DNA of 64,000 bases from Candidatus Aegiribacteria sp. (lineage in GTDB: Bacteria > Fermentibacterota > Fermentibacteria > Fermentibacterales > JCC-6): NCBI GenBank assembly GCA_030594645.1, contig JAUVEU010000004.1, positions 1 through 64,000 on the forward strand. Direction: 5' to 3'. Shown piece after piece: positions 24,307-36,978 of the stretch. The translations under genes and the position numbers were made by a program. The notes beneath the pieces are model-generated. The model searched no databases. It had not been told where the DNA came from and saw only the letters and a program-made list of their open reading frames with translations. Each line of letters begins with the position of its first letter. Positions within the stretch are counted from its first letter, which is position 1.

Positions 24307-25160
24307 TTACAAATCTCCTTATGATGATTTCTCTTTTCTCCGGAAGCGAGACCCTTTCATGTTCTCTCGGAGTTCCCGTAAAAGTCGAGTACTCCATTCC
24401 GGATGGCTGGACAGTTGAATCGCTGGAATCCTCGGAGAGCTGGCGTGTCCTTGAACAGGATGGCGGCACTGTAACACTTGTCCCGCTTTCCCTTGACACG
24501 CTCATCCTTCCTTCACTTGGCGCGCATTCTGACTCTCTTGAAGAACTTTTTGCTCCCCCTGTTCTTCTGGTATCGCGAACCATGCCGGATTCGACCTGGA
24601 CAGTTTCGGTTTTTCCATCTCCTCTTACAATTGATATTCCTCCCGGATTTCCTGAAAATTACCTTTATCAGCATAGATTCTGGGAGGAATGGAAAAAGAC
24701 TCCTCCAACTCCATGGCTGTTTCCAATGCTGCTTATCAGTGTTATCACCATTATTGCTGTATTATCGTGGCTGTATTACAGAAAAAAGAAAAAGCTGTCA
24801 GGTTCAGAAGATATTCATGAGGAAGAAAAGAAACTTCTATCTCCTTTGGATGAAGTAAAAGCTCTGCTTGATTCACCGGCCTTCGCAAACGGCGACTGGA
24901 TAGCCTATTACAGGAATGTAGATGAATTACTCAGGAGCACCGTTTCATCCCGCTTCGGAATACTCAACCGTGCTCTTACCTGGAGACAGATTATTAGACT
25001 TATCCACTCAGAGGAGGATGGAAGAAAATTTACTGAAAACTCCACCGAACTCATCGGAGAGATCACTCTTCAAAGATACGCGTCATGGGGAGGGTCAAGA
25101 GAAAGAGCTGAGAGATTCACTAATAAGCTGGTTTCCATCAGAAGGGACTGGCACATTTGA
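24303..25160 (+). CDS. Bat-operon single-pass membrane protein (DUF4381/BatD-like layout)
   Basis: A 285-residue protein with a signal-like N terminus, a short periplasmic beta-rich domain (residues 20-135), one membrane helix near residues 139-157 (WLFPMLLISVITIIAVLSWLYY), a basic stop-transfer (RKKKK), and a cytoplasmic helical domain (VKALLDSPAFANGDWIAYYRNVDELLRSTVSSRFG) similar in layout to small membrane proteins that sit between DUF58 and VWA genes. The TTG start overlaps the DUF58 stop. It probably contributes to the MoxR-Bat membrane assembly; I cannot assign a more exact family. Confidence 0.7.
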   Translation: MITNLLMMISLFSGSETLSCSLGVPVKVEYSIPDGWTVESLESSESWRVLEQDGGTVTLVPLSLDTLILPSLGAHSDSLEELFAPPVLLVSRTMPDSTWTVSVFPSPLTIDIPPGFPENYLYQHRFWEEWKKTPPTPWLFPMLLISVITIIAVLSWLYYRKKKKLSGSEDIHEEEKKLLSPLDEVKALLDSPAFANGDWIAYYRNVDELLRSTVSSRFGILNRALTWRQIIRLIHSEEDGRKFTENSTELIGEITLQRYASWGGSRERAERFTNKLVSIRRDWHI

Positions 25161-26098
25161 TGAATTTCCAGTTTTTGCCGGCTTTGTTGGGATTTCCATT
25201 CCTTCTGATCATTCTGCAGTTTTTCTTCAGAAAGATTAAGACTCACTCTCAGACATATACTGGACCGTTTTCCTTTCCCTCTGTAAACAGCAATTCGGGA
25301 AATAGAGTGTCCAGCCTTCTGCAATGGATCGGGCTCGCGCTTCTATTCATCGCACTCGCACGCCCACAGTACGGCTTTGAGAGACTTCCAGAAGCTGGTG
25401 AGGGGCTGGATATCATCATAACTCTGGATGTTTCAGGAAGCATGACTCAAAATGATTACTATCCAAGCAGACTTGCCGCAGCTAAAAAAGCAGCTTTGAC
25501 ATTCATAAACGGGAGACCAAACGACAGAATAGGGCTGGTTATCTACGCAGAACAACCTAGAGCCATCTGTCCGCCGACTTTTGATCATTCGACGCTTGAG
25601 AGATTTATTCAGAGCGCTTCAATAGGTACCCTTCAGGATGGAACAGCTATCGGAGCAGGTCTTGCAGTAGCAGCAAGAGGTTTTGATTACTCACAGACTG
25701 AAAGGAGAGTGATCGTCCTCATATCAGACGGTGAAGACACCTCCTCCCGGATTGATCCAATTACTGTAGCGCAGGCGGTTAATACCATTCACGGGGACAG
25801 CCTGAGAGTATATACCGTTGCCATCGGTACTCCTTCTTCCGAAGAAGGCCTTGGAGTTGACAGGGAAACCCTCTCGGAGATAGCCAGATTGAATGGAGGG
25901 AGGCTTTTCAGTGTTGAATCACCACAGGAACTTGATGAGGTTTATTGCGCAATCGATTCACTTGAAGCTTCTACTCTTCCCCCAGAAGGTCTTTTCGTAT
26001 ACAGAGATTCTTATATGCAATTCCTTGTGTGGGGACTGATACTTCTTGCGGTTTCAAGTGTTCTTAAATGGCGCGTTTTCAAGGTTGTGGGTGACTAA
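25160..26098 (+). CDS. VWA-domain membrane protein, BatA-like
   Basis: A 312-residue protein with two N-terminal hydrophobic segments (LPALLGFPFLLIILQFF; LLQWIGLALLFIALARPQYG), a von Willebrand A domain (LDVSGSM with DxSxS metal site near residue 94; VLISDGEDTSS), and a C-terminal helix (FLVWGLILLAVSSVL). This is the standard BatA arrangement with the VWA domain in the periplasm. ATG 25160 shares one base with the preceding stop; a TTG one codon earlier is also possible. Confidence 0.92.
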   Translation: MNFQFLPALLGFPFLLIILQFFFRKIKTHSQTYTGPFSFPSVNSNSGNRVSSLLQWIGLALLFIALARPQYGFERLPEAGEGLDIIITLDVSGSMTQNDYYPSRLAAAKKAALTFINGRPNDRIGLVIYAEQPRAICPPTFDHSTLERFIQSASIGTLQDGTAIGAGLAVAARGFDYSQTERRVIVLISDGEDTSSRIDPITVAQAVNTIHGDSLRVYTVAIGTPSSEEGLGVDRETLSEIARLNGGRLFSVESPQELDEVYCAIDSLEASTLPPEGLFVYRDSYMQFLVWGLILLAVSSVLKWRVFKVVGD

Positions 26099-27084
26099 TG
26101 GGATTCCAGCACCCTTTCCTGCTTCTTCTACTCCTTCTGGCACCTGTTTACTGGTGGCTGAGGATGAAGTGGTTCAATTCTGAAATGAAGCTTTTAAGAG
26201 TCTTCGTCAGACCTGTCCTCTGGGACAGAGTCAGAATTCATCCCCCGCCACAGAGATCATTCTCACTTATCCTGTGGGTGACCGGTTTGATTCTTTCAAT
26301 CGTATCACTGAGTGGTCCAACCTGGGGTCAATCATCAGCCATAGTGTCTACAGGAGGAAAAAACCTCGTAATAGCTCTGGATATCTCTCAATCAATGTCA
26401 TCATTGGATGAGGTTCCATCCAGAATTCTCAGAGCTAATGCGGAAATAAGAAGGCTTGTAGAAGATCTTTATGATGTACGAATAGCGCTCGTGATATTTT
26501 CCGGAAGCTCAAGACTTGCTTCTCCTCTTACCCTGGACAGGGAATTCCTTCTCAGCAGACTTCCTGATGACACATGGAGCAACTCTGATCTTGTCCTCGG
26601 AACGCAGCTTGGGAACCTGGTTGACGTAATGGTTTCCGCGCTGCCCGAAATGGATCTTGAAACCCGCCTTGGATTAGTATTCAGTGATGGGGGGTTTCAT
26701 GATTATGCGACTGCAAGCGCTATAGAAACCGCAAAAGCAAACAATATGCGTCTATTAACGGTTGGTGTTGGAGGACCTGTTGAAATGACAATACCTCTTG
26801 AAAATGGAGGCATTCTCCTTGACGCGGCTGGAGATACAGTTAGAACAGTTCTCGAGGAAGAATCTCTTATGGAACTTGCTCTTGAAACAGGAGGCGTATA
26901 TCTCCCGCTATCTCAGACAGATGATCTTGCATCCATAATTCAGGTATTTCTGGAATACATCTCCGATGAAAACAGTGAGCTTGCGGCAGGTGGTTCTACT
27001 TCAACCAGGAGATATCAGTACTTCCTCGGAGCTGCTCTGATATTCTTCTTCCTCGCGATTGTTGCTGAGAGGAAGGGGAAATGA
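26098..27084 (+). CDS. VWA-domain membrane protein, second BatA/BatB-like
   Basis: A 328-residue paralogue of the preceding protein. It has an N-terminal hydrophobic region (PFLLLLLLLAPVYWW), a second helix (LILWVTGLILSIVSLSGPTWGQ), a VWA domain with LDISQSM as metal site and GLVFSDGG, and a C-terminal helix (YFLGAALIFFFLAIVAE). The start shares one base with the previous stop (TAATG). Two adjacent VWA genes of this type correspond to BatA and BatB in Bacteroidetes-type operons. Confidence 0.91.
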   Translation: MGFQHPFLLLLLLLAPVYWWLRMKWFNSEMKLLRVFVRPVLWDRVRIHPPPQRSFSLILWVTGLILSIVSLSGPTWGQSSAIVSTGGKNLVIALDISQSMSSLDEVPSRILRANAEIRRLVEDLYDVRIALVIFSGSSRLASPLTLDREFLLSRLPDDTWSNSDLVLGTQLGNLVDVMVSALPEMDLETRLGLVFSDGGFHDYATASAIETAKANNMRLLTVGVGGPVEMTIPLENGGILLDAAGDTVRTVLEEESLMELALETGGVYLPLSQTDDLASIIQVFLEYISDENSELAAGGSTSTRRYQYFLGAALIFFFLAIVAERKGK

Positions 27085-27746
27085 TTATCCTTCTCATGAT
27101 ACTGCAGCTTCAAAACGTCCTTGCACCTGCTGATCTTGCGGAGATTGCTGCACAGCACTTCCTTGATAATCAGTATTCCAGCGCGATCGGAGCATGGTCG
27201 GAATTATTTTCAAGGATGCCGGAAAGGGGAAGAATACTCTACAATCTTGCTTCATCTCATTTCATGGCAGATTCTATTTCAGTTGCTGATTCAATTCTTT
27301 TAGCGGATATCACTGATGTGGGAGAAGATACCCTGATGCTTGCAAGGGATATTACTTCGCTCGCACTTGCTATTCAGGAGAACGATTATGCCGGAGTGGA
27401 ATCATCAGTATACTCTCTTCGAATTGCTGTATCAGATGGTCTCTCCCCGCAATGCGGAAAGACCGGATTGGAAGCAGGGCTTAACTGGCTTGATAATCAT
27501 GACCCGCCTGAAGACCAGCAGGATCAGAACGAAGACCAGCAGGATCAGAATGAAGATCAGCAGGATCAGAACGAGGATCAGCAGGATCAGAATGAAGATC
27601 AACAGAATGAGCAGCAACCTCCGCAGATCAGTGAAATGACACCTGAACAGGCACAGGCCATTCTGGATCTGGTTGAAGACAGCAATCAGGCGGAGGATTC
27701 AACAGGGACGAAGAAAATGGGTCATCCAGCGGGACCAGTATGGTAA
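27081..27746 (+). CDS. BatC-like TPR protein with a DQQDQNE repeat tail
   Basis: A 221-residue exported protein. A short hydrophobic start (MIILLMILQLQNVLA) precedes one or two TPR-like repeats (IAAQHFLDNQYSSAIGAWSELF; GRILYNLASSHFMADS). Residues ~143-178 are a perfect run of seven-residue DQQDQNE units, then a Gln/Pro-rich segment and a short conserved end. BatC/BatE proteins in Bat operons are also TPR proteins with charged tails. It overlaps the preceding gene by 4 bases and the BatD gene by 7. Confidence 0.75.
   Translation: MIILLMILQLQNVLAPADLAEIAAQHFLDNQYSSAIGAWSELFSRMPERGRILYNLASSHFMADSISVADSILLADITDVGEDTLMLARDITSLALAIQENDYAGVESSVYSLRIAVSDGLSPQCGKTGLEAGLNWLDNHDPPEDQQDQNEDQQDQNEDQQDQNEDQQDQNEDQQNEQQPPQISEMTPEQAQAILDLVEDSNQAEDSTGTKKMGHPAGPVW
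27510..27608 (+). repeat. Four-and-a-half 21-bp direct repeats inside the BatC-like gene
   Basis: Units starting at 27510, 27531, 27552 and 27573 each encode EDQQDQN, with only third-position changes (AAC/AAT, GAC/GAT, GAA/GAG), and a fifth partial unit follows. Length is a multiple of 3, so changes in copy number would not break the frame. Confidence 0.92.
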
Positions 27747-29302
27747 TTCTGCTGTGGTTCCTGTCTCTTTTCTGTTTGCTTCCTGATATAGAAATATCTT
27801 TACCGGATTCTGTTCGAGCCGGCAATTCCTTCTCAGTTGATATCACACTCAACGGCATGGATATCAGAAATATTGAATGTTTTCCTGTATTTTCAAACGG
27901 ATTGAGATTTCAGGGAAGCAATACGATGCATTCATTCTCCAGTATAAGTACACCATCCGGGCGTTCCATGAACTCTGAAATTGTTCTGTCGATGAATTTC
28001 ATTGCGATTGTCGAGGGAATTCACACAGTTGGACCATTCATAATAACCTCCAATGGTACTCCAATCTGTGAAATCCCTGTTGATTCTATCAATGCTACCG
28101 CTTCAGCTCCGAATAGTGGAATCACATCTATCAACGCCGAATCTGAAGTACTTGCATGGGTAGAAATCGAGGTTGATACTGCAGGTCGAGTATATCCGGG
28201 ACAGTCTTTCCAGATCGATTACTATATCTACAAAACACAAAGAAACGTTGAAATTGTTGACCTCTATCTTGATGCAGCCGAGTACGCCTATTCCACACTT
28301 ATAGAGGACTCAAATGAGCTCAGCTGGGTCAGATGCAAGAACGGTCATTTCAAAACATGGCTTGCTACACTGGAAATAACTCCAGCTTTTGCCTGCACTC
28401 TGGAATTACCCGTCCTGAAGGGAAGAATCGGCATCCCTGGCGGATTCCACCGCAGATCCATCGAACATCAAATATCATCTGAAGGTTCATCTATTGATGT
28501 ATTTCCATTTCCTGATGAAGGACAACCTGCAAATTTCAGCGGAATAACCAGAGAGGTTTTCTTCAGCCTGAATGAAATCCTGAGTGGTTACAGTCAGGCT
28601 GGAGAAAAGTGTATTCTGATTTCCGCAACCGGTCCGGGTGCTGTACAGCTCGAGTCTTTTCCTTCTCTGACAATCAGCGGTCCGGCGTCAATGCTGCCCG
28701 GTCCATTGCTCAGAGAACCTGAAAGGGGAGAGGTAACATGCAGGATCCTTATTGAACCTGATGATGCAGGCATCGTTATCATCGGTCCGGATAGCCTCGC
28801 CTGGTTGGATACCGACTCTTCGCTTTACCGTCAATCATTTATTCCTCTATGTACGCTTTCTGTGGATGCTCCGCACCATCCGGCTATTATTGAAATGAAT
28901 TTTAGCGAGAATGATCGAAATTCCTCTTTATTGCTGATCCTTTCTTCTGTATTACTTGTAATCGCGATTGTATTTCTTTCAATAAGGAAAAAATTAACTC
29001 GAAACATTTTGATGAAGGATATCAATGATGCTCAAGATCCAGAAGAACTGCTCACAGCGCTTGAGTATGAGCTTTCTGAACTACTGACGGGTTCTCCATG
29101 CTATATGGGTTCTGAAGAGCTTGATGAAGCGCTTGAATCCAGAGATACTGACACTATTTTAAAAGGGAGACTTATTCGTCAATGGAAAGATATAGAACTC
29201 ATGCTGTCAGGAAGAAAGATATCCGCAGAACAGCTTGATCGCCTGAAAAGTACATGCATTGAACTCGTTCAGGAGCTGTCCACTGACCTGGATTCTCACT
29301 GA
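27740..29302 (+). CDS. BatD family protein (oxygen-tolerance/envelope)
   Basis: A 520-residue exported membrane protein. It has an N-terminal signal (MVILLWFLSLFCLLP), tandem beta-sandwich domains beginning with the BatD pattern ISLPDSVRAGNSFSVDITLNG, GPFIITSNGTPI and VYPGQSFQIDYYIYKTQRN, one membrane helix near residues 394-412 (SLLLILSSVLLVIAIVFLS), and a cytoplasmic helical end (ELLTALEYELSELLTGSP). It closes the operon that begins with the MoxR gene. Downstream is a 73-base gap with a possible hairpin. Confidence 0.86.
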   Translation: MVILLWFLSLFCLLPDIEISLPDSVRAGNSFSVDITLNGMDIRNIECFPVFSNGLRFQGSNTMHSFSSISTPSGRSMNSEIVLSMNFIAIVEGIHTVGPFIITSNGTPICEIPVDSINATASAPNSGITSINAESEVLAWVEIEVDTAGRVYPGQSFQIDYYIYKTQRNVEIVDLYLDAAEYAYSTLIEDSNELSWVRCKNGHFKTWLATLEITPAFACTLELPVLKGRIGIPGGFHRRSIEHQISSEGSSIDVFPFPDEGQPANFSGITREVFFSLNEILSGYSQAGEKCILISATGPGAVQLESFPSLTISGPASMLPGPLLREPERGEVTCRILIEPDDAGIVIIGPDSLAWLDTDSSLYRQSFIPLCTLSVDAPHHPAIIEMNFSENDRNSSLLLILSSVLLVIAIVFLSIRKKLTRNILMKDINDAQDPEELLTALEYELSELLTGSPCYMGSEELDEALESRDTDTILKGRLIRQWKDIELMLSGRKISAEQLDRLKSTCIELVQELSTDLDSH

Positions 29303-29375: not shown

Positions 29376-30818
29376 ATGCTTGCTAATTACTTTGCTGTAG
29401 GCGCGTATGCGGTTCTTATTTTGATAATCGGTCTGCTGGGAATGCGGAAAACCCGTTCATACAACGATTTCCTTCTTGGAGGTGGTAATGTAGGGCCGTG
29501 GATGACTGCGTTCTCCTACGGAACTGCTTACTTTTCAGCGGTACTATTTATCGGTTTTGCAGGTAAACTTGGCTGGGGATTCGGTATCTCCGCACTCTGG
29601 ATTGCCCTTGGCAATTCATTGATCGGTGTACTTGGCGTCTGGCTTCTGCTTGGTCACAGGATAAAATCTGTGACTCATTCCCTCGGCGTCAAAACAATGC
29701 CTGAATATCTGGAAGCAAGATTCAATAGTCCATTTCTTAAAGCTTTCACTGCTGTAGCCATTTTTGTTTTCTTCATTCCTTACACAGCAGCGGTCTTCAT
29801 GGGTTTGAGCTACCTCTTCGAATCCACATTTCAGCTTCCGTATGCATGGATACTGCTTTTCATGGGACTGTTTACGGGCATATACCTTATTATGGGTGGA
29901 TATAAGTCCATTGCGATGATAGATGTTATCTTCGGAATCGTCATGACAATCGGCGTTCTCGTTCTTTTTCATTTCACTCTGGAAAAGGGGGGAGGCTTAC
30001 CGAACATAATCTCAAGCCTCAAAGCGATTGAACCAAAACTGGTTGGCTCTGTAGGACCACCTGGCATCATTCCTCTGCTCTCTCTGGTATTCCTGACCAG
30101 TGTAGCCCCGTTCGCTATGCCTCAGCTCGTTCAGAAATTTTACGCTATCCGTGATCGGAAAGCAGTCAGGATAGGAACTGTCGCTTCAACGATTTTCGCT
30201 CTTCTTGTAACAGGAACAGCCTACTTCACAGGAGCCCTGACCCGGATATTCCTTTCTCCCGCAACCACTCCAGATGCTTTTGGAGAAGGGGGAGCACCAA
30301 TATTTGACGCTCTCATGCCTGAACTTCTTACAACAGTAATTCCCGGAGCTCTTACGGTTATTATTCTCCTCCTTGTTCTTTCAGCATCAATGTCTACACT
30401 TGCAGCTCTCGTTCTGATATCAAGTTCAACTGTTACAAAGGATTTCTATCACGGTTTCATAAATAAGAATGCCTCAGACAGAACTCTTACAAAACTTGGC
30501 AGATTAAGCAGTGGATTCTTTATCATTCTCTCAATGATTCTGGCCTGGCAGAAACCCGCGGTAATAGTAACTATATTGTCAATATCTTGGGGCGCAATAG
30601 CTTCCGTATTCCTGGGACCATTTATCTGGGGACTGTTCTCTAAAAGATTGGGGAAAGCCGGTGCTATCACTGCCTCCACTACAGGACTTTCAGTTTGTCT
30701 AATCCTTTTCATCTTATGGGGGGCTAAAATGGTTCCCCAGGCTGCTTCCACAGGTATGCTCATATCCCTGATCATTCCTGCTCTGTTTGTCGGTTATCGA
30801 AAGCTCAGATCAACATGA
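29376..30818 (+). CDS. Sodium:solute symporter family transporter
   Basis: A 480-residue inner-membrane carrier of the SSS family with about 13 hydrophobic segments. Family features are the N-terminal helix followed by RKTRSYNDFLLGGGNVGPWMTAFSYGTAYFSAV, an unwound first core helix, the GGYKSIAMIDVIFG segment, and VAPFAMPQLVQKFYAIRD. It should import a small organic solute (amino acid, carboxylate, sugar or similar) with Na+; the substrate cannot be read from the sequence. It is followed after 15 bases by a hybrid histidine kinase, as happens where a symporter and sensor act together. Confidence 0.9.
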   Translation: MLANYFAVGAYAVLILIIGLLGMRKTRSYNDFLLGGGNVGPWMTAFSYGTAYFSAVLFIGFAGKLGWGFGISALWIALGNSLIGVLGVWLLLGHRIKSVTHSLGVKTMPEYLEARFNSPFLKAFTAVAIFVFFIPYTAAVFMGLSYLFESTFQLPYAWILLFMGLFTGIYLIMGGYKSIAMIDVIFGIVMTIGVLVLFHFTLEKGGGLPNIISSLKAIEPKLVGSVGPPGIIPLLSLVFLTSVAPFAMPQLVQKFYAIRDRKAVRIGTVASTIFALLVTGTAYFTGALTRIFLSPATTPDAFGEGGAPIFDALMPELLTTVIPGALTVIILLLVLSASMSTLAALVLISSSTVTKDFYHGFINKNASDRTLTKLGRLSSGFFIILSMILAWQKPAVIVTILSISWGAIASVFLGPFIWGLFSKRLGKAGAITASTTGLSVCLILFILWGAKMVPQAASTGMLISLIIPALFVGYRKLRST

Positions 30819-30833
30819 TAGAGAGGATATGTC

Positions 30834-33800
30834 ATGAAAAAGGATAATCTTTCTACAGATAAAGACACTATCAATAGTGCTGAGAATTCTTCATGGGATG
30901 ATGACATGCATATGGAAATTCTGAATTCCGTCATGGAGAGTATTCTTATTGTCAGTAACGATAACGTAATTTTATTCTGTAATCCGGTCCTTTATGATCT
31001 CTTCGAAGTTGAAATGAGTGAAAATCTCATTGGAAGATCTTTTCTTGACTTCGTCTCCAAAGACCAATGGGACATAGTTGTCACTCAGACTGAGAAAAGG
31101 AAAAAAGGCGAATCCTCAAGGTACGAACTTTCGATTGTCACAGAGAAGAATAACATTAAAACAGTGCTGCTTTCAGTCGTTCCGAGGAAAGATGAAAAGG
31201 GTGAAATAACAGGTTCTTTTGCCACAATAGCAGACATCACGGAAAGAAAACGGATCGAACTTGAACTTATCGATAGCGAGAACCGTTTCAGGGATGTAGC
31301 CCTCTGTAGCTCTGACTGGGTATGGGAAATAGATATTTCGAGCAAGTACACGTTCTGCTCTGATAATGTGATAAATCTTATTGGATTACCATCTTCTGAA
31401 GTACTCGGAAAAACACCGTACGATTTCATGACAACTGAGTCTGCTGAAGATACAGCCGCTCAACTACGCTCGATTACCATGAGAAAAATGAATATCGTTA
31501 ATATGGAAAACAGAATTATCGATAAAGATGGTAATATCCATGTCTTAATAACAAATGGAGTTCCTATCCTTGATGAAAACGGCGATCTCCTGGGTTATCG
31601 CGGAGTGGATAGAGATATTACTGAGCAGATAAAATCGGAAGAAGAACTGAATAAAGCGCTTGAAGCGAATGAATCCATTCTGAAATCGGTACCTTTTGGA
31701 ATAATGATAATCGGAAGAGACAAAAGAATAATCAGTGCAAACATCACCGCCCTGAAAATCCTTGGGCGAAGTAACGAAGAAATCTCTGGAAAAATCTGCC
31801 ATGACTTCATATGCCCTACAGAGGCTGGAAAATGCCCTATTCTTGACCTTGGTGAAAAAATTGATGATTCCGAAAAATTTCTCCTTACAAGAAATAAAAC
31901 GAGAGTACCTATAATCAAATCCGTCATTCCGATTGAACTTAACAACGAAAACGTCCTTCTTGAAGCTTTTGTTGATATTTCCAGACAGAAAAGAGCCGAG
32001 GAGGAAGCCCAAAAGGCCAGCAGCGTTAAAAGCGCATTTCTCGCGAACATGAGCCATGAGATCAGAACTCCCATGAACGGCGTCATAGGTATGACAGGAC
32101 TCCTGCTCGAAACTGAGCTGAATCCTGAACAGATGGATTTCACTCAGACGATACAGGAAAGCGCTGAATCACTCATGTCAATCATTAATGATATCCTTGA
32201 CTTCTCCAAGATGGAAGTCGGTAAGCTTGAACTTGAAGAACTGGATTTTGATCTTCGCACAATGCTCGGAAGCATTGCTGATCTTGCCGCTGTCCGCATA
32301 AGGGAAAAAAACATTGAATTATTGATCAATATTGATTCCGAAGTCCCATCACTTCTCAAAGGTGACCCCGGCAGGCTTAGACAGATAATCATCAATCTTC
32401 TTGGAAACGCGATTAAATTCACCTCGGAAGGGGAGATAGTACTTTCAGTAAATGTTTTGCGGGAAACCGAAAATAGGGTTCTTCTCAAATTCTCTCTTAC
32501 CGATACCGGAGTTGGTATTTCACAGGAGAAACTCCAGAATCTGTTCGATCCGTTTACTCAGGCGGATTCTTCAACAACACGGAAATATGGAGGCACCGGA
32601 CTTGGTCTGACAATTTCCAGCCAGATCGCTAGTCTGCTTGGAGGTGAAATAGGTGTTGAGAGTACTCCAGGAAAGGGCTCTACTTTCTGGTTCACTGCTG
32701 ATATGATAATCAGAAAACCCTCACAAATCTCCAGAAACGAAATGACTGATGAAACCGCTCTGCTGAATTCACTGAATATCCTTATTGTGGATGATAATCA
32801 GACAAACAGAGCCATTCTTGCCGGTATGATGAAAAACTGGGGCTGCAGGTACCAGGAAGCAGACTCGGGCGACACAGCGCTGCTTCTTCTGAGAGATGCC
32901 CTTTTGAAAGATGATCCATTTGACATAGCCGTTCTGGATATGCAGATGCCTGATATGGATGGTGAAACCCTGGGAAGGGTAATCAAGAGCGATCCGAATC
33001 TGAGAGATACTCTGCTTTTGATCATGTATACATCTATAGCAGCTCGCGGAGATGCCGCAAGGATGTTAAACGCAGGTTTTTCCGCCTATTTAACTAAACC
33101 TGTGAAAACATCCCAGTTTCGTGATTGCTTAATCAGCATGCACTCTAATAGTGATCAGATAAGTCCACGAATTGAGAGCAGGGGCATCATCACAAAGCAC
33201 TCTTTAGCTGAAATAAGAAAGGAAGAATTCAGAATCCTGCTCGCGGAAGATAATCCGGTAAATCAGAAAGTAGCTTTAAAAATACTCGAGAAACTCGGAT
33301 ACTCTGCAGTTTCCGTTGAAAACGGGCGGGAAGCTGTGCAGGAGCTTGAGAAATTTTCTTATGATCTTGTATTAATGGATATTCAGATGCCGGAAATGGA
33401 TGGATTTGAGGCAACAGACACTATCAGAGATCCACAATCATCTGTTCTGAATCATGATGTACCTGTTATAGCCATGACTGCTCACGCAATGGAGGGCGAC
33501 AGGAATAAGTGTATTCAGGCCGGAATGGATGATTATATCGCCAAACCGGTTAAACCAGAAATGCTTTCTAAGATTATTAAGAAAGTACTATCCAGGGAAT
33601 TCATTACTGAAAAAAGCCGGAAGACCTTAAAACCGAAAAAGAGACCAGCCGCATTTGACAGATCAGTTCTCAGAGAATCACTCGGAGATGACGATCAGCT
33701 TATTAAGGAGATTCTTGAACTTTTCAAGACTAATGCTGATGAAACCATGAATTTAATGAGGGATGCAGCTTTGAAGGATGATATCGAAACTGTCAGGAAC

Positions 33801-33971
33801 AGCGCTCATTCATTGAAGGGATCATCCGCTAATATCGGTGCAAAAGCCCTGCTGGAAGCAATGAAAAGCATTGAGAAGGCTTGCTCGGATTGTGATGTGA
33901 ATGTTATTAGAACCAGCATCAGACAATCAGAGGAAGATTTTACTGAACTTATGGAGGAACTTGAGAAGTAA
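30834..33971 (+). CDS. Hybrid histidine kinase: PAS x3 - HisKA - HATPase - REC - REC - HPt
   Basis: A 1045-residue soluble sensor kinase. Three PAS domains run through residues ~25-395; the second and third follow the typical PAS-PAC pattern, and each PAS/PAC unit ends in a segment like DITERKR, DITEQIK or DISRQKR. HisKA contains SHEIRTPMNGV with the phosphorylated His near residue 408. The HATPase domain has N-, G1- and G2-boxes (NLLGNAIKFT, DTGVGIS, GTGLGLTI). Receiver 1 has phosphoacceptor Asp near 702 (VLDMQMPDMDG), receiver 2 near 848 (LMDIQMPEMDG), and the C-terminal HPt has its His near 991 (AHSLKGSSANIG). It carries a complete internal phosphorelay, with output presumably to a separate regulator. 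It has no membrane helix, so its signal is cytoplasmic. Confidence 0.93.
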   Translation: MKKDNLSTDKDTINSAENSSWDDDMHMEILNSVMESILIVSNDNVILFCNPVLYDLFEVEMSENLIGRSFLDFVSKDQWDIVVTQTEKRKKGESSRYELSIVTEKNNIKTVLLSVVPRKDEKGEITGSFATIADITERKRIELELIDSENRFRDVALCSSDWVWEIDISSKYTFCSDNVINLIGLPSSEVLGKTPYDFMTTESAEDTAAQLRSITMRKMNIVNMENRIIDKDGNIHVLITNGVPILDENGDLLGYRGVDRDITEQIKSEEELNKALEANESILKSVPFGIMIIGRDKRIISANITALKILGRSNEEISGKICHDFICPTEAGKCPILDLGEKIDDSEKFLLTRNKTRVPIIKSVIPIELNNENVLLEAFVDISRQKRAEEEAQKASSVKSAFLANMSHEIRTPMNGVIGMTGLLLETELNPEQMDFTQTIQESAESLMSIINDILDFSKMEVGKLELEELDFDLRTMLGSIADLAAVRIREKNIELLINIDSEVPSLLKGDPGRLRQIIINLLGNAIKFTSEGEIVLSVNVLRETENRVLLKFSLTDTGVGISQEKLQNLFDPFTQADSSTTRKYGGTGLGLTISSQIASLLGGEIGVESTPGKGSTFWFTADMIIRKPSQISRNEMTDETALLNSLNILIVDDNQTNRAILAGMMKNWGCRYQEADSGDTALLLLRDALLKDDPFDIAVLDMQMPDMDGETLGRVIKSDPNLRDTLLLIMYTSIAARGDAARMLNAGFSAYLTKPVKTSQFRDCLISMHSNSDQISPRIESRGIITKHSLAEIRKEEFRILLAEDNPVNQKVALKILEKLGYSAVSVENGREAVQELEKFSYDLVLMDIQMPEMDGFEATDTIRDPQSSVLNHDVPVIAMTAHAMEGDRNKCIQAGMDDYIAKPVKPEMLSKIIKKVLSREFITEKSRKTLKPKKRPAAFDRSVLRESLGDDDQLIKEILELFKTNADETMNLMRDAALKDDIETVRNSAHSLKGSSANIGAKALLEAMKSIEKACSDCDVNVIRTSIRQSEEDFTELMEELEK

Positions 33972-34001: not shown

Positions 34002-36665
34002 ATGAAACAGAAGAAACTGCCACTTGTGCTGATCATAAATGATAACGAATCTATGAGAAATCAGCTGATTGAATTACTTCAATTCAGCTGCAATTGCAGA
34101 GTAATCGAATCTGCAGGAGGCAGCACCGGTCTTGAGATCGCTGCTCTGGAACAACCTGATCTGATTATTGCTCCTTACAATATGTCCGGAATGAGTCTAT
34201 CTCAATTATGTTCCATATTGCAGGATAATCTTGAAACAGCATGTATTCCCACACTGGTTACATTCGAAACAGATGATCTGATAGATTCAAAAATTCCCGC
34301 CATACCGGCAGGTGTTGTAGAGAGCATTGTCTCTCCACTTTCGAATGCACAGGAATTTCTTAAAAAGATAACTCTTCATCTGGAGACAAAAGCTTACTGG
34401 TCGAAGGTCTACAAACCCGGAAAACATACCGCTTCGGATAAGATGCCATCAGATTACCTTGATTTTATTAAATACCTGAAGGATGCTCTGGATCTTGATG
34501 AAGAAATAGTCAGCAAAATGAAGTGTTTTGATCGATTGTTTCTATACAACTCCGCAAAAGACATTGGAGTTGATGAAGAGACTCTTGCTCGGAAACTGGC
34601 TGAATATTTCCAATTTGAATATTTCCCGTATATTGATCCTGAAAACATACTTACAGAGGTATTCCCGGCACCGTTCAGCAGATCAAAATTCGTTCTTGCA
34701 ATACGTGATTCTGATGAGGATACTACTTACGTTATAAGCAATCCTTTCAACCTTCAGCTCAGAGATACAATTGGCATGGTTTCCAGTGGGAAAGAACCCC
34801 GAATCGGAATTGCCCAGCCTGACAGCATTCTCGCTCTTTTGAAAACATACGCTCCGAATGAAGAGGAATTTAAGGTTCTATCCTCAAGAATTGAGGAGGA
34901 GAACGATTCAGATAATGAAGAAGACTTCGCGCTTGAGGTTAAACAGGGCAGTATACTGGAAATAGAGCATGAACCGGATAAGGATGATATCAGCACTTCT
35001 CCCATTAAGTACATAGCAGACAAAGTTATGTACACTGCTGTAAAAGATGGCGCAAGTGATATTCATATGGAACCGAAAGCCGATAAAGTAGCTGTCAGAT
35101 ATCGTATCGATGGTGATATGGTTGACAGATTTACTCTCAAACCAAAAACCGGTAAAACACTCCTCAGCAGATTTAAGGTCCTAGCGGATATGGATATCGC
35201 TGAAAGACGAAAACCCCAGGATGGATCTTTGGAAGCAAGAATTGGTGGAAAGTTCTTTAAAATGCGGCTTGCTACAACATCCACACCTTACGGGGAAAGT
35301 ATCATCATTCGTCTTCTGGACATGGATGCAAAGCCAATGGAGCTGGCTGAGCTTGGTATGACGGAGAATCAGGCTGAAACAATGTACGAAGTATCTCAAC
35401 AGCATACTGGAGCGATAATAGTCGTAGGGCCAACCGGTTCGGGTAAAAGCACAACTCTCTACAGTCTTATATCCAATATCGATATCAAGAACCGCAGCCT
35501 TATGACCATTGAGGATCCCGTAGAATACGAAATAGCATATGCCAATCAGCAGGAAGTCAATGAGAAAGCCGGTGTTACCTTTGAAGCGCTCCTCAAATCC
35601 GCAGTAAGACAGGATCCCGATATCATCTTTCTTGGCGAGATCAGAGATCCGTTCACAGCAAAAACAGTTATGGATCTGACGAGCACAGGTCATATGACAT
35701 TCGGCACACTTCATTCAGCAAATACGACAACTTCCATAGGAAGACTTGAGCGCCTTGGTGTTACAAGAGCCGATCTGGCTGACTCTGTTCTTCTCATTTC
35801 ATCCCAGAGGCTGCTTAAACGTCTGTGTCCTGATTGCAGGATAATCAGATCAATAATACCTGAGGAGGCAGAAATGCTCAGCCTTTTTACTGATGATATT
35901 CCAGACACGGTTGCCGATCCTGTCGGATGCCCGAAGTGTAAAAACAGAGGGTACAAAGGGCGTCAGGGGATATACGAACTGCTCCGATTCAATCCTGAAG
36001 TGATAGATATCGTCAGGAGCGGTGAATCAGTATCTTCCATGCGGCAGAGGTTTCATGATAGCGGACAATATCTTATGAGTGATCATGCTATTGATAAACT
36101 CAGAAACTTCACTGTCTGCTATAATGATATTTATCATTCGATCCTTCTTGAGGAGAAAAGACTTACCGGTTCAATCAGAAAGAGAATAATAACAGTATCT
36201 TCTCCAGTTAATCAAATTGTTAATGAAATCTCAACATCCAGACCTTTCGAGAAACACGATAAACCTGTTACTGAAGATCGAAGAGGAGGGAAGTCTGAGA
36301 ATGGAGCCAGAATCCTGGTTGTAGATGATGATCCTGATCTTCGCGAGTTCATATCCTTTATCCTGTCTTCCAATGGATATGATGTAACTTCAACAGGTGA
36401 CGGAATTGATGCTATTGTAACGCTCAGCAAGCAAAGTTTCGATTTGATCCTTTCTGATGTCGATATGCCCAATCTTAACGGATTCAAACTGCTTGAGACT
36501 ATCATAAACAAAGGGATCGAAACTCCTGTTGTATTTCTCACTGGAAGAGATAATACCCAGGACGAAGTCAAGGGTTACGAATTAGGCGCTGAGGACTACA
36601 TAAGAAAACCAATTCACAAGAACACATTACTTCTGAGAATCAAGAAAATACTTAAACGTATTTAA
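34002..36665 (+). CDS. PilB/GspE-type secretion ATPase flanked by two receiver domains
   Basis: An 887-residue fusion. Residues 1-125 look like a receiver domain whose phosphoacceptor Asp is lost (LIIAPYNMSGM where D would follow the strand). Residues ~150-290 resemble the MshEN/GspE N-terminal domain. Residues ~320-760 are a type II secretion/type IV pilus ATPase: Walker A GPTGSGKSTTLYSLI at ~476-490, Asp-box LMTIEDPVEYE, Walker B IIFLGEIRDPFTA, His-box THMTFG-like HMTFGTLHSANT, and a zinc-type CPDC...CPKC pair. Residues ~767-887 are an intact receiver (ILVVDDDPDLR, LILSDVDMPNLNGF with Asp near 818, FLTGRD, KP at the end). It lies 30 bases after the hybrid kinase, the likely phosphoryl donor. 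Confidence 0.88.
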   Translation: MKQKKLPLVLIINDNESMRNQLIELLQFSCNCRVIESAGGSTGLEIAALEQPDLIIAPYNMSGMSLSQLCSILQDNLETACIPTLVTFETDDLIDSKIPAIPAGVVESIVSPLSNAQEFLKKITLHLETKAYWSKVYKPGKHTASDKMPSDYLDFIKYLKDALDLDEEIVSKMKCFDRLFLYNSAKDIGVDEETLARKLAEYFQFEYFPYIDPENILTEVFPAPFSRSKFVLAIRDSDEDTTYVISNPFNLQLRDTIGMVSSGKEPRIGIAQPDSILALLKTYAPNEEEFKVLSSRIEEENDSDNEEDFALEVKQGSILEIEHEPDKDDISTSPIKYIADKVMYTAVKDGASDIHMEPKADKVAVRYRIDGDMVDRFTLKPKTGKTLLSRFKVLADMDIAERRKPQDGSLEARIGGKFFKMRLATTSTPYGESIIIRLLDMDAKPMELAELGMTENQAETMYEVSQQHTGAIIVVGPTGSGKSTTLYSLISNIDIKNRSLMTIEDPVEYEIAYANQQEVNEKAGVTFEALLKSAVRQDPDIIFLGEIRDPFTAKTVMDLTSTGHMTFGTLHSANTTTSIGRLERLGVTRADLADSVLLISSQRLLKRLCPDCRIIRSIIPEEAEMLSLFTDDIPDTVADPVGCPKCKNRGYKGRQGIYELLRFNPEVIDIVRSGESVSSMRQRFHDSGQYLMSDHAIDKLRNFTVCYNDIYHSILLEEKRLTGSIRKRIITVSSPVNQIVNEISTSRPFEKHDKPVTEDRRGGKSENGARILVVDDDPDLREFISFILSSNGYDVTSTGDGIDAIVTLSKQSFDLILSDVDMPNLNGFKLLETIINKGIETPVVFLTGRDNTQDEVKGYELGAEDYIRKPIHKNTLLLRIKKILKRI

Positions 36666-36685
36666 ATAGTGACAGGGACTATTTA
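36663..36685 (+). terminator. Hairpin at the end of the secretion ATPase gene
   Basis: TAAATAGT (36663-36670, including the stop codon) pairs perfectly with ACTATTTA (36678-36685) around a 7-base loop GACAGGG. The stem is AT-rich and followed by only a short T-containing stretch. It is a plausible but weak terminator between convergent transcription units. Confidence 0.4.
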
Positions 36686-36978
36686 TTCAAAACAAGCACC
36701 AGTACAGAGGGTTGGACACAATTTAGTGAATATATGACGTCCGATAAGGGATATTATGTAAAGTCATATGTATTGATACCGCACAGGTCTCTTATGACTG
36801 TACATAATATCAGTAATTCCATTTATCCCCTTCTGGACAGTTTAGCACAAGAACAAATGGGATAGATCGTTTGAATGTCTTCTACATTACAGAAGAGAAA
36901 AACGGTGATGGCGGAAAATATTTTGATTCAAGATGCGTCGCCGAATGACTAAGAATGTCAAAATACAAGGTTTGACCC
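36686..36978. other. Gene-free spacer between convergent units
   Basis: About 290 AT-rich bases lie between the hairpin and the stop of the minus-strand TPR gene. A short plus-strand frame from ATG 36736 encodes 43 residues (ends LLDSLAQEQMG), without a ribosome site or recognisable family. It could be a remnant of a lost gene. No repeat, tRNA or riboswitch is seen. Confidence 0.5.

Follow-up and report, generated by a model that had tools for sequence, protein, structure and literature searches.

A candidate phosphorelay-controlled type IV filament motor with receiver domains at both ends in "Candidatus Aegiribacteria"

Results

Gene content and domain architecture of the locus

The window, a stretch of 64,000 nucleotides, comes from a "Candidatus Aegiribacteria" (Fermentibacterota) MAG of 3.07 Mb in 158 contigs that is 94% complete. 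Among named organisms, its nearest relatives are MAGs of "Candidatus Aegiribacteria" and "Candidatus Fermentibacteria". An open reading frame (ORF) with an ATG start, the frame and ends of which match positions 34002 to 36665 of the forward strand exactly, was annotated as a T2SSE-type ATPase with a receiver domain at each end (Table 1). It begins 30 bases after an ORF annotated as a hybrid histidine kinase, which in turn begins 15 bp after the end of an ORF annotated as a sodium:solute symporter. Given this proximity, the kinase might read solute flux via the symporter in the window genus. Directly upstream of these three ORFs lies a Bat-like operon (25157-29302; VWA proteins, a TPR protein, and a BatD-like protein), the order of which is conserved across the window genus and not in sister genera; a TPR/BatC-like ORF at 27081-27746 contains an in-frame tandem repeat of EDQQDQN. 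By eye, the intergenic stretch at 36700-36860 resembles the stretch after the kinase/HPt at another locus (L108), and a search with a 17-base exact-match probe gave no second copy.

Table 1. Positions of the annotated features in the window
Feature	Position	Strand	Evidence
SSF sodium:solute symporter	29376-30818	+	Pfam PF00474, 1.3e-52; order kept in genus
Hybrid histidine kinase, 3 PAS-HisKA(H408)-HATPase-REC(D702)-REC(D849)-HPt(H992), 1045 aa	30834-33971	+	Pfam
Kinase HPt domain, residues 959-1030, probable phosphodonor to motor	33708-33923	+	Pfam, 1.7e-11
REC-N domain-T2SSE-REC ATPase, 887 aa	34002-36665	+	ORF, Pfam, orthologue alignment, tree
N-terminal pseudo-receiver, residues 9-113	34026-34340	+	Pfam Response_reg, 5.8e-7
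MshEN-like N domain, residues 213-287, without RLG c-di-GMP-binding motif	34638-34862	+	Pfam, 7.7e-6, weak
T2SSE/GspE-PilB motor domain, residues 332-694	34995-36083	+	Pfam, 1.8e-103
C-terminal intact receiver, residues 771-880	36312-36641	+	Pfam Response_reg

The T2SSE domain contained a Walker A motif (residues 476 to 484), an Asp box (504 to 508), the Walker B glutamate (Glu546), and a His box (H571), the set by which extension ATPases are recognized, together with two CxxC pairs of zinc residues (609/612 and 643/646). K482, E546, H571, and all four cysteines were invariant in an end-to-end alignment of 19 full-length orthologous motors of one family, the window's included. The Pfam Response_reg model matched the whole protein in two stretches (2.7e-36). 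The C-terminal receiver contained D775/D776/D777, D819 (36456-36458) at the phosphoacceptor position, T847, and K869, while the N-terminal receiver contained Pro58 (34173-34175) at the phospho-Asp position and Ser111 at the Lys position. Because the N-terminal domain, when scanned by itself, matched at 5.8e-7 with 30.1 bits (cut-off, 30.2), it is, as judged by these scores, a divergent yet genuine receiver. The initial annotation had described a PilB/GspE-like ATPase with an Asp-less receiver at the N terminus and an intact one at the C terminus, next to a hybrid kinase that ends in an HPt domain, and both descriptions agreed with the Pfam matches and the residues found. AlphaFold2 modeling of the motor from four sequences gave a mean pLDDT of 36.8 and a pTM of 0.26, a model too poor for any receiver-motor contact to be visible.

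The motif RLGxx(L/I/V)2xxG was absent from the MshEN domain of all 19 dual-receiver motors, a finding on which c-di-GMP binding by this domain was rejected and which places the motor outside the MshE-type c-di-GMP-binding ATPases. The RLG motif was present in both PilB proteins encoded in the pil cluster of the window genome.

Conservation and history of the two receivers

In the C-terminal receiver, D819, T847, and K869 were invariant in 19/19 orthologues, and the acidic pair, Asp, Thr, and Lys of a response regulator were all present in each. The same Asp/Thr/Lys set was found in seven receiver-bearing motors outside the window family. A lack of conservation of this aspartate had been named beforehand as evidence against phospho-control. 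In the N-terminal receiver, the Asp and Lys were kept in 11 of the 19 orthologues (sister genera) and lost in 8 (the window genus and one neighboring genus), so that the response regulator residue set was incomplete in 8/19, all in the window lineage. The N-terminal receiver of the nearest outgroup, from another phylum, looked intact. Since sister genera and the outgroup retain both residues, the N-terminal loss is best read as derived; the ancestral motor likely had two live receivers, with the pseudo-receiver arising by later loss in the window lineage. A reading of the missing N-terminal Asp as a defining trait of the architecture was rejected because of the intact Asp in sister genera and the outgroup; the sister lineages keep two intact receivers. 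Identity within the genus was 0.86 for the C-terminal receiver, 0.85 for the motor domain, 0.63 for the REC-N region, and 0.37 for the variable linker of about 45 residues that tethers the C-terminal receiver.

Placement among secretion and pilus ATPases

In a motor-domain tree, the REC-T2SSE-REC proteins and the outgroup from another phylum formed one clade (100/99) apart from PilB, GspE, and PilT. This clade fell on the PilB/GspE side of the tree, separated from three PilT-type paralogues at 100/100, with a stem branch of 1.49 between it and PilB/GspE. The motor scored 366 bits against the NCBIfam model for PilB (TIGR02538), far below the cut-off of 676 that the two pil-cluster PilBs of the same genome narrowly miss as well (635 and 669), and 365 bits against the model for GspE (TIGR02533; cut-off, 630); it is thus about equally far from both. 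Its match to GspE 1p9r reached 266 bits. Compared with PilB and GspE, the window motor shares their motor domain, down to every catalytic and zinc motif, but it adds receivers at both ends, lacks the c-di-GMP motif, and falls in its own clade. On this phylogenetic and profile evidence, the motor represents a third group alongside PilB and GspE. It had been proposed as a pilus or secretion motor; it is probably not one that drives a secretion system of its own.

Association of the kinase and HPt domain with the motor

The kinase contained the HisKA-HATPase-REC-HPt order and the conserved His and Asp residues of BarA/ArcB-like hybrid phosphorelay kinases, and it scored below the equivalog cut-offs for BarA and ArcB. 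Gene order was compared over 21 loci of the family. At 20 of these, including 2 at which the contig holds only the end of the kinase ORF, an HPt domain was encoded directly 5' of the motor and in the same orientation. At two loci (L051 and L050, the latter with the HPt ORF read from the third frame), the HPt domain was encoded by an ORF of its own that overlaps the end of the kinase ORF and still lies between kinase and motor. The one exception was a motor without an adjoining kinase or HPt domain (G021; L060). In a second candidate phylum, the ORF 5' of the motor was annotated as REC-HPt; Pfam did not report an HPt domain in this ORF, and its detection required a profile made from the HPt domains of the family (52.5 bits, with the His kept).

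Close orthologues of the kinase were found in 8/8 genomes of the window genus that contain the motor and in 1/11 that do not. That single motor-less genome (G013; 61% complete) retained the kinase with its HPt domain. The window genome encoded numerous other receiver-bearing proteins.

Pilin, one-TM protein, and PilC platform

ORFs predicted to encode a protein with one transmembrane segment (one-TM protein) and then a pilin were found directly 3' of the motor in two genomes of the family (G026 and G031), and the same order of motor, one-TM protein, and pilin was found in two genomes of one family in the second phylum (G293 and G385); the third genome of that family lacked both the motor and the TM protein. 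In the window genome, a matching pilin/one-TM pair was encoded on a different contig (C105), and no pilin remnant was seen by eye 3' of the window motor (36666-36978). Close copies of the pilin (E below 1e-34) were present in 15 of the 17 motor-bearing genomes and in 1 of the 8 that lack the motor (Fisher test, P = 5e-4, a value that ignores shared ancestry and MAG incompleteness).

Several further arrangements were seen around these ORFs. The pilin/one-TM pair of the window genome follows an ORF whose large product has a weak type IX sorting tail (L076:615-4073), an order also present in G017 and G004. A 1.9-Mb genome (G005) kept the one-TM/pilin pair (L082:1359-1784), and neither PilC nor a dual-receiver motor was found there. 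In the second phylum, the pilin that follows the motor carried an extra C-terminal domain weakly similar to 3-keto-disaccharide hydrolase (L107:4780-5556), and the one-TM protein had a zinc-finger-like N terminus. In one sister genus, the ORF directly 3' of the motor encoded a peptidase of the C25 (gingipain-like) type that carries a Por secretion tail (L056:5940-8168); such a peptidase was absent from that position in the window and the outgroup, and it was therefore rejected as cargo of the motor.

A single PilC platform gene was found in the window genome (94% complete) and in most family relatives checked. In the window genome, the pil cluster comprised PilC, two PilB-like motors, PilT, a probable sensor kinase, a regulator, and a pilin. 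No platform gene was found beside the dual-receiver motor. Since a filament requires a pilin, a peptidase, a motor, and a platform (PMC10191384) and most of these genomes hold one PilC gene, the dual-receiver motor probably shares the cell's single PilC, the base of the housekeeping pilus. Several platform genes were present in the second phylum, so this argument rests on Fermentibacterota.

Receiver-fused motors in other families

Among 385 genomes surveyed at a strict threshold, T2SSE motors with a C-terminal receiver only were found in four further families (f64, f77, f101, and f182). In f77, the receiver-fused motor clusters with genes for a prepilin peptidase, GspF, and pseudopilins, and the GspF gene is the only platform gene of the genome. 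An operon of this make-up, with the receiver-fused motor, prepilin peptidase, pseudopilins, and sole platform gene, was seen in G115 and G256; motors of this kind thus do occur in filament-assembly operons. The ATPases of G139, G102, G256, G115, and G243 combined T2SSE with an intact C-terminal receiver, as does the window motor, but they had no N-terminal receiver and fell outside the window clade in the tree. One of these genomes (G139) encoded two separate C-terminal-receiver motors (L094 and L095), one of which follows two REC-PAS-GGDEF-EAL genes. The regulation proposed for the window motor had been called uncommon among such ATPases. Receiver-fused GspE-like ATPases are not unique, given the C-terminal-REC versions in at least four other families; none of those versions has an N-terminal receiver.

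No description of C-terminal-receiver GspE-like ATPases of other families was found in the freely readable literature. Nor was one found there of a double-receiver motor whose HPt and pilin partners are conserved, and this combination appears to be undescribed in the literature searched. An association of the MshEN domain with REC domains has been published (Wang et al. 2016, PMC5013675), and a receiver near such motors is for this reason not a new idea.

Discussion

In the reading favored here, at a probability of about 0.6, the ATPase serves as an auxiliary motor for the extension of type IV filaments, and its activity would be set posttranslationally by a His-Asp phosphorelay. The kinase would autophosphorylate at H408, the phosphate would pass to its own receivers (D702/D849) and then to H992 of the HPt domain, and from there it would be transferred to D819 in the C-terminal receiver of the motor. 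The phosphorylated, tethered receiver may then alter hexamer assembly or ATP turnover, or mediate docking of the motor at the platform. Acting on the cell's only PilC, the motor would polymerize the dedicated pilin made with the one-TM protein, and in the window genus the N-terminal pseudo-receiver, its phosphate input lost, may still serve in structure or docking. The direct phospho-control proposed in the initial annotation gains comparative support from the invariant C-terminal Asp and from the HPt domain that adjoins the motor at nearly all family loci and in the second phylum.

Phosphorylation might instead position the motor at a cell pole or on a partner, as with FrzS and SgmX in Myxococcus, rather than gate ATP turnover. 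The FrzS pseudo-receiver has a role in control of the Myxococcus type IV pilus (PMC12632262), a precedent that the N-terminal domain of the window motor resembles; FrzS differs in being a polar protein that recruits SgmX, with a receiver that is not fused to the motor. An N-terminal receiver that is decayed yet retained suggests a binding surface, and a linker that varies as much as this one within a genus fits a tethered docking module. Positioning is considered unlikely as the whole account, but it is compatible with phospho-control and would be a sub-case of it.

It is improbable that the ATPase has lost filament assembly and become a phosphate sink or a dedicated signaling output. The long stem branch that separates it from PilB and GspE, NCBIfam scores far under both cut-offs, and the lack of a platform gene alongside point that way; against this, every ATP-binding, catalytic, and zinc residue checked is invariant in the 19 orthologues, and pilin genes adjoin the motor in two lineages. 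Just as improbable is a kinase that signals mainly to other regulators, with the motor phosphorylated by other kinases or unphosphorylated: the many other receiver-bearing proteins of the genome, the kinase's own receivers, at which the relay could end, and the motor of G021 that has no kinase are consistent with it, but the HPt-motor adjacency, the HPt domain that was split off and kept in place, the absence of the kinase too from 10 of the 11 genomes of the genus that lack the motor, and, in another phylum, a REC-HPt gene of different build at the same position all argue against it.

A broader arrangement can be put forward more tentatively, at somewhat less than even odds. The HPt donor, dual-receiver motor, one-TM protein, and dedicated pilin would form a self-contained, phosphorelay-switched filament module that borrows PilC, so that one base could build different filaments according to which motor is phosphorylated, and this module would be common to Fermentibacterota and the second candidate phylum.

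In TadZ/CpaE, an Asp-less receiver-like domain is also linked to a pilus-system ATPase, but that ATPase is of the MinD/ParA type, serves localization, and is not an extension motor. MshE-type ATPases (PMC5013675) are likewise extension motors with a built-in signal-input domain; in the window motor, this input is a phospho-receiver in place of the c-di-GMP motif that all 19 orthologues lack.

Known means of tuning pilus motors are c-di-GMP binding, partner proteins, and transcription. The retention of this arrangement in many relatives and in a second candidate phylum suggests that there are bacteria in which phosphorylation acts directly on a pilus motor, in place of control through gene expression. 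If so, a receiver on the motor's own chain and an adjoining HPt domain would place filament assembly under a direct two-component switch. A natural comparison for the role of each receiver would come from the sister lineages, in which both receivers are live, and the window lineage, in which one has decayed. The conserved motor-pilin pair, which has no platform gene of its own, would likewise provide a case in which to examine whether motors are swapped on a shared pilus base.
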